6,686 bases of DNA from Clostridia bacterium (GTDB lineage: Bacteria; Bacillota_A; Clostridia; TANB77; CAG-508). Numbering within the stretch: position 1 is the first letter of the stretch; every line of letters starts with the position of its first letter. The notes beneath the pieces were generated by a model. It did not search any database and had not been told where the DNA came from. It saw only the letters and a program-made list of their open reading frames with translations. The stretch covers positions 1 through 6,686 of the forward strand of contig JAAVZD010000064.1 in assembly GCA_022791475.1 (NCBI GenBank), written 5' to 3'. The position numbers were made by a program, and so were the translations under genes. Shown here piece after piece: positions 1 through 6,686 of the stretch.

Positions 1-117
1 ACAGATGAAAAGTGGATGGATATGAGTACCTATGATATATGCATTGACAGCAGCCGGTTTACAAAAGAACAGATTGTTAAGATGCTGAAAGTGGCGTATG
101 AGAGTATGGGGGCGTAG
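1..117 (+). CDS. Cytidylate-kinase-like family protein, C-terminal 38 codons (5' partial)
   Basis: The frame is open from the first base to a TAG at 115-117. The visible tail contains WMDMSTYDICIDSSRF followed by an amphipathic helix and ends ESMGA. The pattern W-x-D-x-x-x-Y-D-[LI]-C-I-[ND]-[ST]-S, then a short linker and a closing helix, is the usual C terminus of the clostridial cytidylate-kinase-like P-loop NTPases (the Cytidylate_kin2 type). The catalytic P-loop lies outside the window, so activity cannot be judged. These proteins are small cytosolic nucleoside-monophosphate-kinase-like enzymes, often of unproven substrate. The gene ends 59 bp before an inserted palindromic element, and no T-tract terminator directly follows its stop. 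It is on the same strand as the giant gene, but 319 bp and a strong terminator-like hairpin separate them, so a shared operon is unlikely. Family assignment rests on a short tail only. Confidence 0.7.
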   Translation, partial: TDEKWMDMSTYDICIDSSRFTKEQIVKMLKVAYESMGA

Positions 118-348: not shown

Positions 349-401
349 AATGGTAAGGAAATTAGGGGAAGTGATTCCCCTTGTTTGCTTACCATTTTTT
401 T
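349..401 (+). terminator. GNRA-capped intrinsic-terminator-like hairpin in the leader of the giant gene
   Basis: AATGGTAAG (349-357) pairs perfectly with CTTACCATT (388-396). After a G/G mismatch, AAA 359-361 pairs with TTT 384-386. After a wobble and a mismatch, AGGGGAA (364-370) pairs with TTCCCCT (375-381) around a GTGA loop, a GNRA-type tetraloop. A run of seven T (395-401) follows. This is the structure of a Rho-independent terminator, yet it ends only 35 nt before the next start codon. It could close readthrough from upstream, or act as an attenuator for the promoter at 306-334. TACCA (390-394) can instead pair with TGGTA (401-405), which would break the base of the terminator stem; this alternative is weak at 5 bp. 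Confidence 0.75.
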
Positions 402-436: not shown

Positions 437-3400
437 ATGAAGGATACGATAGTATTTCGTATAGATGTAGATGATGAAAAAAGTTATGCGATGCTTGCAA
501 ATTTTATCTATAAAAGAGAACATCATATGGGACTTTCACAGGAGGAGATGGGGCATGTAACTTATAAATATTATATTGGGAATTCATATAGGAAGCTTAA
601 ACGTTGGGCAAGGAGAATATCATTAGACAAAACGACATATCAATCTGTGAATCAGCCTGTAAATATTAAAAATATAACAGATAAATATGAGATTATATAT
701 TGCGTACGGGTCAATAAAGACAGTGATATAGTAGAATTTTATAATCTGTTTTTGATTAAGCATTATTACGCCGAGCTTAAGATTTTGATTCTGTTTGAGG
801 AATGCGACAGAGCTAATTATCATAAGATTTCGCAATTTTTATACCGAATTACAAGCCATGATAAAGATTTTTATGATTCTTGTTTTTTTGTGAGCTGCGG
901 AGAAGAACAGAGGGCGCAGATAAACAATATAAAGTTATCAAGAAGCTTTATCCCGCTGCAGATTGTGGATCAGGATAATTTGGTGCGTTTATTCGGGAAC
1001 AGCAGAGAAGTATTGAGTGAAAAGTATTTACACAGAATACTTAACAATAGAGAGGAAAAGGAAGATCTTGGAGAAAAAGGAGACCTTGTAGAAGGGGGAA
1101 TTAAGCTGCTTAAGGATATCCGAAAACAACTGTCCGCAATTCCGGAGGAGCAGGCCATCCAGATTTTTCGTGAAATGGATATTTTTGCTTTTAATTTATT
1201 ATGTTATGTAATCAGCGTGAAGCAAAAGGAAGCTTTTGATTCACTGTTGTTAGAGCGTTATGCCTTTCAGATGCGGCAGTATTCTATGGCAATCCGGCAG
1301 TTGGCGGAGAATATCGTGTTCCATTCAAAGACTGGCTTTGGGGTCATTGCAGTCAGGGTACACAAGCAGAATTCTTCATATATGAAACAGAAATATCATG
1401 TGTCTGGTAAAGGAAAAGAACGTATTTTTTTGGAGGTGATCGTTAGCGATTTTTGCGGCAATAACCTGTCAGGAAATATTGCAAAGAATTTCGTTTCTAA
1501 TCTTGAGAAAGAAGATGATAAAAAGGTATTTAGCGGGTTAAAACCGAGTTCTTTTTTTGATTATGAAAAAGAAAGAGGAGAGGCCGATGCATGGAAGTAT
1601 TTTTATCGAAAACCGGAAAATATAGGAAAACATTATGGGCTTAGGATATTCCAGTCTGTTGTTTCAACGTTTAATGGTTTTTTTGGGGCAGAGAGCCATA
1701 GCGGATACAGATGTGAAGCAGGAGATTGTTTTTTTACATATGAAGACGAAGGCCCAGGAATATGTATGCCGGGTACGAGATATCATATTCTTATGCCTTT
1801 AGAGATTATTCAGGCGGTAATTAGGAAGCAGGATTTAAGCTTAGACAGCGGGCTTAATATCGGTAATCTGGTAAACCATGTTTTGGGATATCGAATCGGG
1901 GATATGAGTATTGCCCCAATCTCTCCGGCATTCTTATCGCAAGAACATAAGGACAGGCAGATTGTGAAATGGGCGGATGATATATGCGGCGATCTAAAAA
2001 AGAATGTTTATGATATTGTATATATATCTATGGAAAAGATGGAGGAAGGTAATGGGGAGATCCTGGCGAAGGCGTTGGTTATGGCGCTTTACCAGTTAAA
2101 AAGAGATGTCTCAGCCGTTCTCTATCAATGTTCGGACTCCCTGAAAAAGAATATGTTTGAAACTTTGAGGATCTTTTTTAGAAGCGTAAGCATCGAAGAA
2201 ATGTTTTATGGATTAAAAGTTCAGATTGCTTTTTATTCTAAAGAGTTTGAGGAATTGATTATTGATTTGGGCAGTGAAAGTAATACGGATAATATTAATG
2301 CATATATTGCAAATATGAAATGTATTACTTCAACGGAATGGTATTTTAATCAGGATAAGAAAAGGTATGACTTAAGCAGAGGGGCGGACAGTTATATACC
2401 GTACGATATTCTGCATGAGATAGAGATTGATCATGAGAAGCGGACAATATTTGAGCACTATACGGCAGTCATATTGAACCAGAGTATCCAGACGCCTGAT
2501 TTTGGATGTAAGCTTGAGCATACACATATGAGGCTGGGCTCTACGATCCATATTGACGAGTTCTACGAAGCAGAGATTCTCTTTGAAAATAAATTATTTG
2601 TATCGCGTTTTGCACTGCTTCTGGTAAAAGATATGAAGGACCGTCTGCAAGGTGTTGGCAAACTGACTCTGTATGGGTATGGAACCTACTCGGAGACGGT
2701 TCTTGTACAGATGATCGATATGATTCATGGACTTTATCCGGAGGAGATAGACGCAGATTATATTATTTTGGAAAGAGAAGAAGAAAAAAGAGGTTTTCTA
2801 CATAAAGACAGAATCCGCTATAATCGCCTGTTCCAATCGGAAGAAGACCGGATAAATTATTTTAAAGACCGTAAGGTTGCGACAATCGTATTGATTAATT
2901 CAACTTTAAAGACCCATTTACGGTTGATAAGCTTATTTAAAGAAGAAAATAGAAAAGATGAGCTGGATGAGAGCTGGCTGCTTTGTAATTATGCAGTGTT
3001 GCTGATTGGTAATGCTCAAGAGAACCGTTATTGGACACTGGAGGATAAGAAGGTAAAGCTAGTGAACGGAACAATCAATCCCACTCCCACGTATTTCGTC
3101 CATGCTCATGCAAATTATCAGGAGCCTTCCGAGTGTGTGTATTGTTTCCCTGAGAATCCGCTGGCAGAGATTCCTCTTATTGAAGTAAACGCGGCGTCAA
3201 CAATCCCGAATCAGGGATTTGGAATTATAAAAGAAGTAAAAGATTTAAAATTAAATTATCAGCGAATCAAGGAGGAGGAAGACAAGTTTAAGTGCCTGAA
3301 AGATAAGTTCATATATGGGCATATCCAGAGAAATGAGAACCATTTTCTTTATTATTTCAAGACAGAACATCTGTGGATGTGTGAGAAAGAAAAGATCAGA

Positions 3401-6400
3401 GATTCACTGCATATCTGGAGGCAGGGATGGAAGCGGGAGGAACGGCTGCAATACAATATTATTGTAGCTCCGATGCATTTCAGCAATGCCGGATTTGTAG
3501 AATTAGTCAATCAGGAGGTATTTGGCGGGAACGCGATTTTGCTGAGAATAGATTTTGATAAGGAATACCGTTGCAATGCATATACGAAATTCTCTTATCT
3601 GCGTAATTATGCAGAACAATTATATAAGAAGGATAAGAGAGGGATGATTCGTGTTCATTTTGTGGATGACGCGATTATCAGCGGCCGCACTTATCACAGG
3701 GCGAAAAGCCTGGTTGAATCTGTACTGGGAATGGACCGGAACTTAAACAAAATAGAGATAAAAGTTTTTGATAAGGTTTTTGTTATAGTAGACCGTAATT
3801 CCATGCATAGCAGAAGGCAGTATGTAAAGAACTGCGATACGGATTTTTATACGTTTATCCACATTAATATATCATCTCTCCGTAATTATGGAGATTCCTG
3901 TATCTTTTGCAATCTGAAAAATGAAGCGGAGCTTCTTTACAGCACAGCGTCAACCAAGCAGATTGCAGAATACTGGATGCACTGTATACAAAAATTTAAG
4001 CTTTATCAGCTTGAGGAATACAATCATAAACCGCTGAAGGATTCGGACAGAGCGTTTAGAAGGCTGTTCTGTACTCATATGGCCCAGAGTGTTCTGGAGG
4101 AAAAAAACCATGGAAATGACCGTGAGCAGACAATCTACCTGATTTTAAGATTATTGTGTAAAGATTATGAAGGCCGCAGAGAGGAAAAAAGCAAGGACAG
4201 GTATGAGTATTTTTTGTCATATCTCAAATGTATTTCGCGTCCTTTTCTGGTGTTTAGAAGGGCTGTTAAGGAAGCAATTTTTGATATTCTTCTGTTGTTT
4301 ATAGAGGCGGTTATACAAGAAAAATCCTTACGTGACGTGATAAAGACTGTGGAGGGTGAGAAGACATACTTAAAGCAAAGACGATTGATTCTTCTGTTCA
4401 ATTGGATTGATAAGAATATTTTGAACGATACTGAGCTTACAAAGAAGGATAAACGGGATTTGGTAAGGCTTCTGATGAAACAACTGACAGAGTTAAAGAG
4501 TAATTATATTATCCGCCCGGATAAGATGGAAGTAATCTTTCGGTTTATGGAGGAGGCGGGAACTGAAAAAGGAGAGTTTGAAGTTTATTACATGACTTTA
4601 ATTGACCGTCTGGTAAGCTCAAGCTCTGATACCAATAAAAGTATTTGGCTGGATCACCAGATATCCGGCAATAGATTTCAATATGTCACGGAGGATTACA
4701 GGGCATGGGTAATTTTAGAGAACACAAGGGCTTTCCGCGACGGTATTGAAAAATTATATATCATGGCGTCTAAAGAATTCCGTCAGATTTCGGAGAAAAG
4801 AATAGACGATTTGAAAAAGTGTTACGATTACCATAGGGCGTATTCCATGTTTGAAGATTTTTTATATAAAAATACCCCAGAATTAGAAGCATACAGGAAT
4901 GCCGAAGATGATTTGGACCGTGAAAACATCTATGAGATTAAGGAACGAATCCAACGTTTTATAAAAACTTTGCCCCAACTTGAGACAATCGATTTCAGGA
5001 AAACTGCGTACAGCCTTGAATGTGGAAATAAAAATTGGAGTGACATTTTTTATACAGAGAAACAAATGTTAGAAGGAGAAATAGAAGAAGAAAATGAACA
5101 TGCCATAAGCGGGCAATTAAAGAGATTAATCAATCAAGAATGTGACAGTTATCAGTATGGTAATTTTTATAAAATATTAAATAGGGATGGATATATGGAA
5201 GGTGAGGAGATTTCTTCGGGCGGTGCAGATATGATAGCATGCTGTATGAAAATACTGAAGCTGTGCAGAGAGTCGGAGACAAAGGTGCTTGATAAGGTTG
5301 AGGAGCTTGCGGCGTTATTTAAAATTATTCTTAAGGCAGACAGAGTCCAATTTATTATTGAGAATGAGGACAATAATAATCTGGATAAGTGGAAAGGAAA
5401 TATTGAAGACAAATATAATGATATTGTGAGACAGTGCGGCAGCGAGCATCTGCCCAGACTCCATATAAGAGGGAAAAAACACTATTCCGTGATTGTTGAG
5501 AAAGCGGATAATGAAGATTGTAATACAGAATTATCTCAGGAAGTGGAGCTATTACTGTCTGGTATGGTTCAAAGCAAAGACAGGCCGCGCAGTTATAGGA
5601 GGGATAGGGAGCATGGAATCGTAATATGGGAGCTTGAAAATAGCCAGAGGAGTATTTGGATCAGTATCGAGAATCATGATTGGATTGGGGACGAAGCAGG
5701 CCGGGGGCTTAAGATTGCGCGGGATATGCGGAGGGTGATGGTATTCTATCAGGAGTTAAAGAAAAAGATATTCAATCCGGAGAACGATGATTTTCTGAAT
5801 GAGATATCACGCTTCCGCAAGGAACAGCGTATTTATAATAGCAATAAGGTTTATACCCATACAAAAGACTACCAGCAGGAGATGCAATTTGAACATGCGG
5901 CCAGATACTTTATGGAGGGGCATGAAAAGGAAAACATTCGGGAAAACTATGCTTCCTATATTTTGAACCTGCTGGCAGATATTAATGTAAGCAGATATTA
6001 TCGCGATGGACTGCATAAAAGAATATATAAGTATGAGAAAAAGATAGAAAAACATGCGTCTTGGGGACAGCTTTCAGCGGTGCTTCGAGACAGTAAGACA
6101 TTCGTGTATCGTGAGAGCGACGGTGAAAAGGTATCTGTCAGGCTTGAGGTTCTGGATATAGACGAATATACCCGTATTTTGTGTGAAGACAGCGGCCGTT
6201 CCGTGCAGGAGCTTACCTTGCTAATTTATTCTTTGATTTTGAATGCGGCAGAGCAGGGACGGGGAATAAGAGAAATTCAGAAGGAAATCTCCAATCCGGA
6301 TGTGCAAAAAGAACAGAAATGTGTTATAGTAAAGTTATATAAGGAAGGGGGAGATCTTATCATAGAGAATGAATGTGAAGATTCTGTTCATCCGGAACAA

Positions 6401-6686
6401 ATAGAACGGTATCAGGATCGTGTGCCTGAGTCAGAGGAGGATGGTATCTCGTTCTGGAGTTTTAATTGTTATATAAAACAGTGCATAAATTCTCTAATAT
6501 TGTCAAAAATGAAAGAAACAGAAGAAAATATCCAAAGAGGCGAAATAGAGCCGGAAAAGATACGAAGCCTTGGAGGATGGATTAAGAAGCTGGCTGGCAG
6601 AGAATGTGAGATTCAGTCAGAAGGTTATGAAGTGGAAGGTAGAAATTATTTTAGAGTGAAGATTCCGATTTTTATAGAAAAATATC
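437..6686 (+). CDS. Giant multidomain GHKL ATPase / tandem PRTase / GAF-like protein (3' partial)
   Basis: One frame runs 2083 codons from ATG 437 to the window edge without a stop. Reading by motif, in order: residues 1-270, alpha/beta region of unknown family with strand-like IIYCVRV (86-92), KILILFEE (115-122) and CFFVSC (149-154); 270-455, GHKL ATPase; about 520-618, possible STAS-like domain; 695-735, lead-in HTHMRLGSTIHIDEFYEAEI; 742-922, degenerate PRTase-like unit ending in CxxC; 1003-1173, PRTase with intact PRPP loop and a second CxxC; about 1200-1600, mostly helical, no recognised family; about 1606-1780, GAF-like; 1876-2083, second degenerate GHKL. The final strand FRVKIPIF (2072-2079) matches the usual end of a GHKL fold, so the true stop is probably close. 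No signal peptide or transmembrane helix is apparent, suggesting a cytosolic protein. Function is not known; a nucleotide-dependent signalling or conflict/defence role is inference. Codon use is uniform along the gene and no frameshift was seen. Confidence 0.93.
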   Translation, partial: MKDTIVFRIDVDDEKSYAMLANFIYKREHHMGLSQEEMGHVTYKYYIGNSYRKLKRWARRISLDKTTYQSVNQPVNIKNITDKYEIIYCVRVNKDSDIVEFYNLFLIKHYYAELKILILFEECDRANYHKISQFLYRITSHDKDFYDSCFFVSCGEEQRAQINNIKLSRSFIPLQIVDQDNLVRLFGNSREVLSEKYLHRILNNREEKEDLGEKGDLVEGGIKLLKDIRKQLSAIPEEQAIQIFREMDIFAFNLLCYVISVKQKEAFDSLLLERYAFQMRQYSMAIRQLAENIVFHSKTGFGVIAVRVHKQNSSYMKQKYHVSGKGKERIFLEVIVSDFCGNNLSGNIAKNFVSNLEKEDDKKVFSGLKPSSFFDYEKERGEADAWKYFYRKPENIGKHYGLRIFQSVVSTFNGFFGAESHSGYRCEAGDCFFTYEDEGPGICMPGTRYHILMPLEIIQAVIRKQDLSLDSGLNIGNLVNHVLGYRIGDMSIAPISPAFLSQEHKDRQIVKWADDICGDLKKNVYDIVYISMEKMEEGNGEILAKALVMALYQLKRDVSAVLYQCSDSLKKNMFETLRIFFRSVSIEEMFYGLKVQIAFYSKEFEELIIDLGSESNTDNINAYIANMKCITSTEWYFNQDKKRYDLSRGADSYIPYDILHEIEIDHEKRTIFEHYTAVILNQSIQTPDFGCKLEHTHMRLGSTIHIDEFYEAEILFENKLFVSRFALLLVKDMKDRLQGVGKLTLYGYGTYSETVLVQMIDMIHGLYPEEIDADYIILEREEEKRGFLHKDRIRYNRLFQSEEDRINYFKDRKVATIVLINSTLKTHLRLISLFKEENRKDELDESWLLCNYAVLLIGNAQENRYWTLEDKKVKLVNGTINPTPTYFVHAHANYQEPSECVYCFPENPLAEIPLIEVNAASTIPNQGFGIIKEVKDLKLNYQRIKEEEDKFKCLKDKFIYGHIQRNENHFLYYFKTEHLWMCEKEKIRDSLHIWRQGWKREERLQYNIIVAPMHFSNAGFVELVNQEVFGGNAILLRIDFDKEYRCNAYTKFSYLRNYAEQLYKKDKRGMIRVHFVDDAIISGRTYHRAKSLVESVLGMDRNLNKIEIKVFDKVFVIVDRNSMHSRRQYVKNCDTDFYTFIHINISSLRNYGDSCIFCNLKNEAELLYSTASTKQIAEYWMHCIQKFKLYQLEEYNHKPLKDSDRAFRRLFCTHMAQSVLEEKNHGNDREQTIYLILRLLCKDYEGRREEKSKDRYEYFLSYLKCISRPFLVFRRAVKEAIFDILLLFIEAVIQEKSLRDVIKTVEGEKTYLKQRRLILLFNWIDKNILNDTELTKKDKRDLVRLLMKQLTELKSNYIIRPDKMEVIFRFMEEAGTEKGEFEVYYMTLIDRLVSSSSDTNKSIWLDHQISGNRFQYVTEDYRAWVILENTRAFRDGIEKLYIMASKEFRQISEKRIDDLKKCYDYHRAYSMFEDFLYKNTPELEAYRNAEDDLDRENIYEIKERIQRFIKTLPQLETIDFRKTAYSLECGNKNWSDIFYTEKQMLEGEIEEENEHAISGQLKRLINQECDSYQYGNFYKILNRDGYMEGEEISSGGADMIACCMKILKLCRESETKVLDKVEELAALFKIILKADRVQFIIENEDNNNLDKWKGNIEDKYNDIVRQCGSEHLPRLHIRGKKHYSVIVEKADNEDCNTELSQEVELLLSGMVQSKDRPRSYRRDREHGIVIWELENSQRSIWISIENHDWIGDEAGRGLKIARDMRRVMVFYQELKKKIFNPENDDFLNEISRFRKEQRIYNSNKVYTHTKDYQQEMQFEHAARYFMEGHEKENIRENYASYILNLLADINVSRYYRDGLHKRIYKYEKKIEKHASWGQLSAVLRDSKTFVYRESDGEKVSVRLEVLDIDEYTRILCEDSGRSVQELTLLIYSLILNAAEQGRGIREIQKEISNPDVQKEQKCVIVKLYKEGGDLIIENECEDSVHPEQIERYQDRVPESEEDGISFWSFNCYIKQCINSLILSKMKETEENIQRGEIEPEKIRSLGGWIKKLAGRECEIQSEGYEVEGRNYFRVKIPIFIEKY
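1244..1801 (+). other. Domain: N-terminal GHKL (Bergerat-fold) ATPase, residues 270-455
   Basis: The N-box region IRQLAENIVFHS (286-297) aligns with the SpoIIAB-like pattern in which Asn292 is the Mg-binding Asn and His296 the following His. The usual N-box acidic residue is Gln288 by this alignment, although Glu291 is adjacent. VIVSDFCGNN (334-343) is an imperfect G1 box keeping Asp338 and Gly341. HYGLRIFQSVV (399-409) followed by GAESHSG (417-423) is a G2-like segment. GTRYHILMPL (446-455) is the typical closing strand. GHKL proteins include histidine kinases, anti-sigma kinases and DNA gyrase/Hsp90-type ATPases; the short loops here are closest to kinase or anti-sigma forms. ATP binding is likely, but catalysis is uncertain given Gln288. 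Confidence 0.72.
1994..2290 (+). other. Domain: possible STAS-like alpha/beta region, about residues 520-618
   Basis: YDIVYISMEKM (525-535) is followed by a helix, then SAVLYQCSDSLKKNMF, then VQIAFYSKEFEELIIDLG. The order is strand, helix, strand ending in a Cys-Ser, helix, strand, helix, which resembles STAS-type folds. GHKL kinases and STAS proteins are classic partners in sigma-factor partner switching, so a fusion would make sense. The resemblance is of pattern only and could equally reflect another small alpha/beta domain. Confidence 0.3.
2660..3202 (+). other. Domain: degenerate PRTase-like unit, residues 742-922, ending in a CxxC knuckle
   Basis: This stretch can be laid on the canonical PRTase at 1003-1173. 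KVATIVLINSTLKTHLRLISLF matches the PRPP-loop strand and following helix, but the acidic pair is replaced by Ile820-Asn821 and the loop is about two residues shorter. NYAVLLIGNAQENRYW corresponds to VFDKVFVIVDRNSMHSRRQY. TYFVHAHA corresponds to YTFIHINI, with an aligned His (889 versus 1142). CVYC (900-903) corresponds to CIFC (1155-1158), and both units then run to an AST tripeptide. Without the acidic pair it is probably not catalytic and may be structural, dimer-forming or ligand-sensing. This is my own alignment by eye. Confidence 0.55.
3443..3955 (+). other. Domain: phosphoribosyltransferase with intact PRPP loop, residues 1003-1173
   Basis: IRVHFVDDAIISGRTYHRA (centred on Asp1077-Asp1078, Ser1082-Gly1083-Arg1084-Thr1085) is the PRPP-binding signature of type I PRTases: a hydrophobic strand, two acidic residues, a short hydrophobic turn, then S/T-G-R-T. 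Upstream, NIIVAPMHFSNAGFVELV (1007-1024) fits the first core strand and helix. Downstream, VFVIVDR (1080s motif followed about 40 residues later) and YTFIHINI (1138-1145) fit later core strands, and CIFC (1155-1158) closes the unit. Type I PRTases use PRPP in nucleotide salvage, but orphan versions also occur in stress-response and conflict operons. The substrate cannot be told from sequence. CxxC pairs next to a PRTase recall the zinc-bearing ComF type, though here the knuckle follows rather than precedes the core. Confidence 0.75.
5252..5776 (+). other. Domain: GAF-like sensor region, about residues 1606-1780
   Basis: An amphipathic helix (DKVEELAALFKIILK, 1619-1633) runs into the strand ADRVQFIIENE (1634-1644). 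This is the usual helix-then-strand opening of GAF domains, where the phrase normally reads as L-x-x-a-x-x-L-x-A-D-R-x-x-x-x-L. Later strands HYSVIVEKA, GIVIWELEN and SIWISIENH are followed by a long closing helix (LKIARDMRRVMVFYQELKKKI, 1758-1778). GAF domains bind small ligands such as cyclic nucleotides and often precede histidine-kinase cores, which fits the GHKL-like domain after it. The match is by pattern and no ligand residue can be named. Confidence 0.42.
6062..6685 (+). other. Domain: C-terminal degenerate GHKL domain, residues 1876-2083 (end of window)
   Basis: LTLLIYSLILNAAEQG (1926-1941) is an N-box with Asn1936; the usual acidic residue four positions earlier is Ser1932. CVIVKLYKEGGDLIIENECED (1962-1982) supplies two core strands, with Asn1978 where a DxGxG box would start, as in HPK10/AgrC-like kinases. 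EDGISFWSFNCYIKQ (2001-2015) resembles the G2 helix, and GRNYFRVKIPIF (2068-2079) is the closing strand. An upstream helical pair (about 1783-1875) could be a dimerisation stem like that of a histidine kinase. ATP binding is doubtful because the G1 box is missing, so the unit may be a pseudokinase-type interaction module. Confidence 0.6.

Follow-up and report, generated by a model that had tools for sequence, protein, structure and literature searches.

The window analysed here comprises 6,686 nucleotides of Clostridia bacterium (positions 1 to 6,686 of contig JAAVZD010000064.1, assembly GCA_022791475.1, forward strand), and carries a single giant gene whose product joins a GHKL ATPase, two phosphoribosyltransferase (PRTase) modules and a GAF-histidine-kinase end, and which may head a three-gene signalling operon. 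The following features could be distinguished, with residue conservation counted over 206 long homologues of the giant protein:

437..6685, + strand: giant gene, 2083 codons from an ATG start, with no stop within the window and the frame open at the window end
1199..1831, + strand: GHKL1 ATPase domain, residues 255-465 (hhalign, N-box and G2 in register, conservation)
2417..3151, + strand: first PRTase fold, residues 661-905, with a degenerate phosphoribosyl pyrophosphate (PRPP) loop (INSTLKTH)
3134..3145, + strand: CxxC motif, C900 and C903, possible zinc ligands, in 206/206 homologues
3299..3946, + strand: second PRTase-like module, residues 955-1170 (weak profile match, loop in register)
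3659..3691, + strand: PRPP loop FVDDAIISGRT, residues 1075-1085 (conservation)
3899..3910, + strand: CxxC motif, C1155 and C1158, possible zinc ligands, in 206/206 homologues
4043..5161, + strand: all-helical block, residues ~1203-1575 (secondary structure of the predicted model)
5276..5785, + strand: GAF/roadblock-like domain, residues 1614-1783
5786..6016, + strand: helices resembling dimerisation and histidine phosphotransfer (DHp) helices, residues ~1784-1860, where histidine-kinase cores align; low model confidence around the His
5858..5860, + strand: His1808, proposed phosphoacceptor on the basis of conservation
6053..6685, + strand: histidine-kinase catalytic domain (GHKL2), residues ~1873-2083
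349..401, + strand: leader hairpin with 22-nt arms, a 4-nt loop and a trailing T-run, 36 bases ahead of the ATG and probably serving as an intrinsic terminator or attenuator

Over 1544 aligned codons, the giant gene differs from that of Sporofaciens musculi (locus L001) at 113, 71 and 305 first, second and third codon positions, respectively, with a dN of 0.054, a dS of 0.425 and a dN/dS of ~0.13, and this substitution pattern indicates that the frame is a real protein under purifying selection. The continuous 2083-codon gene read in the initial annotation is upheld by this ratio and by the size of the family. The window protein as query retrieved 186 proteins at E 0.001 (best 120 listed), while 130 proteins passed the threshold with a distant member as query (best 120 listed), and the nearest full-length homologue among the matches listed comprises 2084 amino acids. 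The S. musculi copy (L001, 10001-17552) is 90 % identical and broken into several frames. No precomputed Pfam domains occur on the family members listed, and Pfam, NCBIfam and PADLOC scans of the giant protein returned zero families above the curated cut-offs; a DUF1654 match at E 0.18 was dismissed as noise. Similarly, a PHROGs scan of the two halves of the protein gave no match, alignments A1, A2, A3, A6 and A12 had no significant match among PDB sequences, and no relatives were found for the window protein among the plasmids, phages or viral_contigs searched, for the L024 protein in the plasmids or phages searched, or for the 1308 amino acid L026 protein in the plasmids searched. Of the Pfam search and structure prediction initially proposed as checks, the former yielded no match above cut-off; fold search recovered the GAF-kinase and first PRTase folds, which took up the matches listed.

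The GAF-like and second GHKL modules, previously read as separate units, are both present but constitute one GAF-histidine-kinase end containing His1808, with GHKL2 as its catalytic domain. The DHp plus catalytic and ATP-binding (CA) core fold by which histidine kinases are recognised is found here, and the top Foldseek match is a bacteriophytochrome (E 2.9e-4). In GAF histidine kinases such as bacteriophytochromes, as in the giant protein, a GAF domain precedes the DHp-CA core, but the input part of the giant is far larger and different. His1808 is present in 205/206 long homologues and in 11/11 kinase-type loci aligned, lies near the position of HK853 His260, as judged from aligned ranges only, and is predicted to be the site of autophosphorylation.

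The loci of 13 genomes, often drafts, were examined, eleven of which are kinase-type, and the numbers of loci are small. Genes encoding the giant, a receiver-like protein (161-293 amino acids) and a DUF2971 protein (332-420 amino acids) follow one another in this order in all ten kinase-type loci with enough contig, and the self-contained single-gene machine initially proposed could therefore not be sustained. In nine of these ten loci the genes overlap or are separated by 17 bases or less, while in the tenth (L001) an IS110 element separates the broken giant from the receiver-like gene. The L026 giant is split (758 and 1308 amino acids). Contigs end 208 bases after the receiver-like gene in L040, without a recognisable DUF2971 start, and directly after the giant in L041, the second locus of G1620; this draft genome contains fragments of two or more giants (L039, L041 and L042). 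As the window ends at the end of the giant gene, the companions are expected in its own genome by extension from its relatives.

The receiver-like proteins are highly diverse, with D9, D90 and L93 invariant in 11/11, while 45 close relatives share D9, D90 and T125 without exception and E8 almost without exception, a motif pattern as at the active site of receivers. An acidic residue at strand 1 and a phosphoacceptor Asp at strand 3, as expected of receivers, are both found. Comparison by hhalign against twelve genuine receivers gave E-values of 0.024, 0.26 and 0.0052 for three subgroups and 0.032 for a deeper alignment, a Pfam scan of five of the proteins gave no match at E 0.5, and the PDB search with the receiver-like alignment reached DivK at E 0.98. 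The third protein matches DUF2971 (PF11185; E 1.3e-8 to 0.018), above cut-off in three of the five scanned and under it in the others (E 0.0034 and 0.018), and 24 residues are invariant in 10/10. The PADLOC candidate PDC-S31 is weakly matched by 2/10 DUF2971 companions (L026, E 2.9e-4; L022, E 0.0012), while two of three scanned match phrog_1762, a phage family of unknown function, so that DUF2971 proteins are also phage-borne. The genes matching this family lie at L018 16897-17985 and L026 6973-7971.

Two genomes encode giants with a different C-terminal end, G037 in one gene (2300 amino acids) and G1235 in two (1609 and 752 amino acids). A calcineurin-like phosphoesterase (metallophosphoesterase) replaces the kinase end in both (E 3.9e-11 and 2e-14), with the phosphoesterase motif blocks present in both proteins. 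These variants are located at L025 1129-8031 and L031 6792-13883. The receiver-like and DUF2971 companions were not found in either phosphoesterase-type locus by eye and tblastn over the 20 kb read, a search that is weak for receivers because the L040 receiver was retrieved only by itself as query. Both variants likewise have a His at the position aligned with His1808, in the context AIHHFK or QYHHIR as opposed to HT, HS, HG or HM in the kinase type. GHKL1 and the PRTase pair are retained in both types, and can thus be expected to belong to sensing or gating.

The modules, their order and the assignment to signal transduction initially proposed hold. GHKL1 aligns with HATPase_c at E 1.1e-6, with the N-box and G2 region in register, and the features of GHKL (Bergerat) ATPases, namely an N-box Asn, a G1 Asp, a G2 Gly and profile similarity, are all found; N292, the N-box residue named at the outset, D338 and G401 each occur in 206/206 long homologues. 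The tandem PRTase assignment stands for the fold of module 1 and the loop of module 2. Module 1 has the type I PRTase fold, its identity being settled by fold search, but lacks the acidic pair, with S822, T823 and T826 conserved instead, and its profile comparisons with eleven genuine PRTases and with the second module were not significant. The profile match of module 2 is weak (E 0.022), but its FVDDAIISGRT loop, as first recognised, falls in register on a genuine PRTase loop (DDAIISGRT aligned) and contains the acidic pair (D1077, 206/206; D1078, 205/206), while G1083 and T1085 are kept in 186/206 and 181/206. The pair reads DY in L025, NT in L031 and DT in L040.

In overlapping genome samples, with the centre genome counted, the giant was matched in 8/397 (family), 2/391 (class), 3/398 (phylum, one very weak) and 4/325 (order, one very weak) genomes, in 2/200 and 2/147 around G431, and in 1/130 of a further sample. 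The two very weak matches, G852 (E 9.9e-4) and G1575 (E 2.7e-5, a 62 amino acid open frame), were excluded as members. The G431 operon lies in a defence island, where it adjoins BrxA, BrxB and BrxC, followed by PglX, PglZ and BrxL, while the other side encodes an AbiH/SIR2-like protein, an AAA protein matching candidate PDC-M54A, type IV restriction and Wadjet JetA, JetC and JetD; conjugation genes were recognised further on by eye only. Suggestive neighbours include an AAA/STAND-like gene transcribed divergently from the operon in L017 (no PADLOC match), a PNP-HAD protein 3.8 kb off, past three other genes, in L020, and a methyltransferase 2.6 kb away in L024. The L020 protein (1259-3100, 613 amino acids) contains nucleoside-phosphorylase and HAD phosphatase domains and could be a nucleotide-degrading effector. 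No known defence genes were found in the remaining loci among the subset of neighbours inspected. Scans confirmed a transposase or recombinase gene in the vicinity of L001, L023, L025 (weak), L039, L040 and L043/L044, while a candidate in L024 gave no match. A defence role of the operon is suggested by the one clear island, by some of the neighbours, by the patchiness of its distribution and by the swapping of modules, and may thus be considered. No housekeeping operon, which the initial annotation had regarded as incompatible with its proposal, was seen among the loci read.

The leader inverted repeat is 86 % complementary (-27.6 kcal/mol) and identical in L001 (9913-9960). A hairpin and T-run at -16 kcal/mol or better occur at 5/12 starts folded, window and L001 counted, with strong examples shortly 5' of the giant also in L017, L018 and L025. 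The arm ATCAATGGTAAGG is common to the window, L001 and L017, although the L017 protein is only ~37 % identical. The leader hairpin may be a transcription attenuator; an Rfam scan of the window gave no match. A perfect 15-nt inverted repeat (176-190 and 262-276, 71 bases apart), which also occurs in L001, is located between the leader and an upstream gene, the 3' end of which occupies window positions 1-117. The same gene in L001 (9080-9682) encodes 200 amino acids and is cytidylate-kinase-like by eye only.

The reading preferred here, with a probability of about 0.5, is that the giant protein is a sensor histidine kinase heading the three-gene operon, with a relay via the receiver-like protein to the DUF2971 protein, which, as the operon consists of separate genes, would be the likely effector. 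The GHKL ATPase, tandem PRTase modules and helical block, comprising the first two thirds, would form the sensing and gating part, and the GAF domain would relay its state to the kinase end, where His1808 would take phosphate from ATP and pass it to an Asp of the receiver-like protein, which would then switch the DUF2971 protein. As the kinase end is swapped and the companions are missing in the phosphoesterase-end relatives, the same sensing core would there drive a built-in effector. A phage or some other mobile element may act as the trigger, perhaps by way of PRPP or nucleotide levels; the titles of PurR structures name complexes with cPRPP and ppGpp, which show that the PRTase fold is able to sense such ligands. 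Co-occurrence provides the strongest inference, since a kinase-receiver-effector chain predicts that the kinase end is accompanied by both companions, as observed, while these were not found with the swapped end. This reading has several weak points. Asn1936, the second N-box residue noted at the outset, is N in the window, but unconserved among the homologues (N in 140, S in 63 and a gap in 3 of 206). The conserved Lys of receivers is lacking, with no invariant Lys among the 45 close relatives, and the receiver assignment is based on motifs and position, with no significant profile match. For DUF2971 any chemistry is conjectural, an ADP-ribosyltransferase-like fold being a suspicion. The phage or conflict defence role first suggested fits the full island of G431 and the few suggestive neighbours, but a consistent defence context is not seen across all loci read.

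It is rather unlikely that the operon is a two-component system that serves regulation and not defence, with DUF2971 providing a metabolic or housekeeping output and the locus being accessory and mobile. In such a system the PRTase pair would sense PRPP or nucleotides in the manner of PurR of Bacillus subtilis, a repressor with one PRTase domain as opposed to two modules inside a kinase. The G431 island, the patchy presence and exchangeable output, and the occurrence of recombinase or transposase genes around several of the loci argue against this explanation. A working GHKL1 machine driven by ATP, with the C-terminal end as a pseudokinase scaffold bound by an unphosphorylated small protein, is considered unlikely. 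The invariance of N292, D338 and G401, as opposed to Asn1936 of GHKL2, would be explained by it, as would the small protein without a conserved Lys or significant receiver match, and PMC8011034 describes as paraMORC relatives GHKL ATPases that have kinase-like and receiver-like partners close to restriction genes. The near-invariant His1808 within a complete DHp-CA arrangement, and the invariance of D9 and D90 in the small protein, point instead to a phosphorelay. Also improbable is a metabolic-guard immune sensor, in which the PRTase pair would read or convert PRPP or phage-altered nucleotides, GHKL1 would gate, and output would pass via the GAF-kinase end and receiver to DUF2971, or directly to the fused phosphoesterase. 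The family would then consist of defensive two-component systems that monitor nucleotide metabolism and can exchange their output. Active PRTases making a nucleotide-like product, with the rest of the protein regulating synthesis, are very improbable given the degenerate first loop, the DY, NT and DT variants and the incomplete conservation of G1083 and T1085, despite the near-complete retention of the module 2 acidic pair.

The preferred relay can be compared with several known systems. Detocs, as described in two reports (PMC11249213, PMC10952713), comprises defensive two-component systems of three genes each, the best known having an ATP-cleaving purine nucleoside phosphorylase (PNP) effector. 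The giant operon resembles it in outline, namely in the three genes and the two-component type (PMC11249213), whereas the third gene here is DUF2971 in 10/10 loci, some Detocs possibly having other effectors, and the giant sensor carries GHKL and tandem PRTase modules, unlike Detocs as there described. As sensor and effector differ, the giant operon is not filed as Detocs; neither the giant nor its companions matched Detocs-named models in PADLOC, in a copy unchecked for these models. The HEF_HK and Response_reg_2 families (PF19191 and PF19192), as far as the available text of PMC8011034 describes them, are linked kinase-like and receiver-like genes with GHKL domains near restriction-modification genes. 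This linkage and the GHKL domains are shared with the giant operon, but neither PRTase nor DUF2971 is mentioned in the available main text, and no Pfam match to either model was obtained at E up to 1 (giant) or 0.5 (companions), the presence of both models in the Pfam copy being unverified. The type III-A retron, likened here by description only, includes a PRTase-like protein within an anti-phage system (PMC12548924), which in the accessible text is a separate effector beside the reverse transcriptase rather than tandem modules in a sensor. Text searches of the available portions of a BREX survey (PMC12839542) and a conflict-system survey (PMC7159879) yielded no PRTase or DUF2971, and no description of a giant/receiver/DUF2971 system was found in the open-licence literature searched.

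As its relatives head a signalling operon, one of which is located inside a phage-defence island, the giant with its operon may represent a novel type of immune sensor in bacteria. If so, these proteins would do the sensing in a new two-component system of defence, which would add to the immune uses of two-component signalling. DUF2971 would be placed in a functional setting for the first time, and the PRTase fold would become a candidate immune sensor. Because the kinase end and two genes are exchanged for a single phosphoesterase domain, this wiring can be tested directly.
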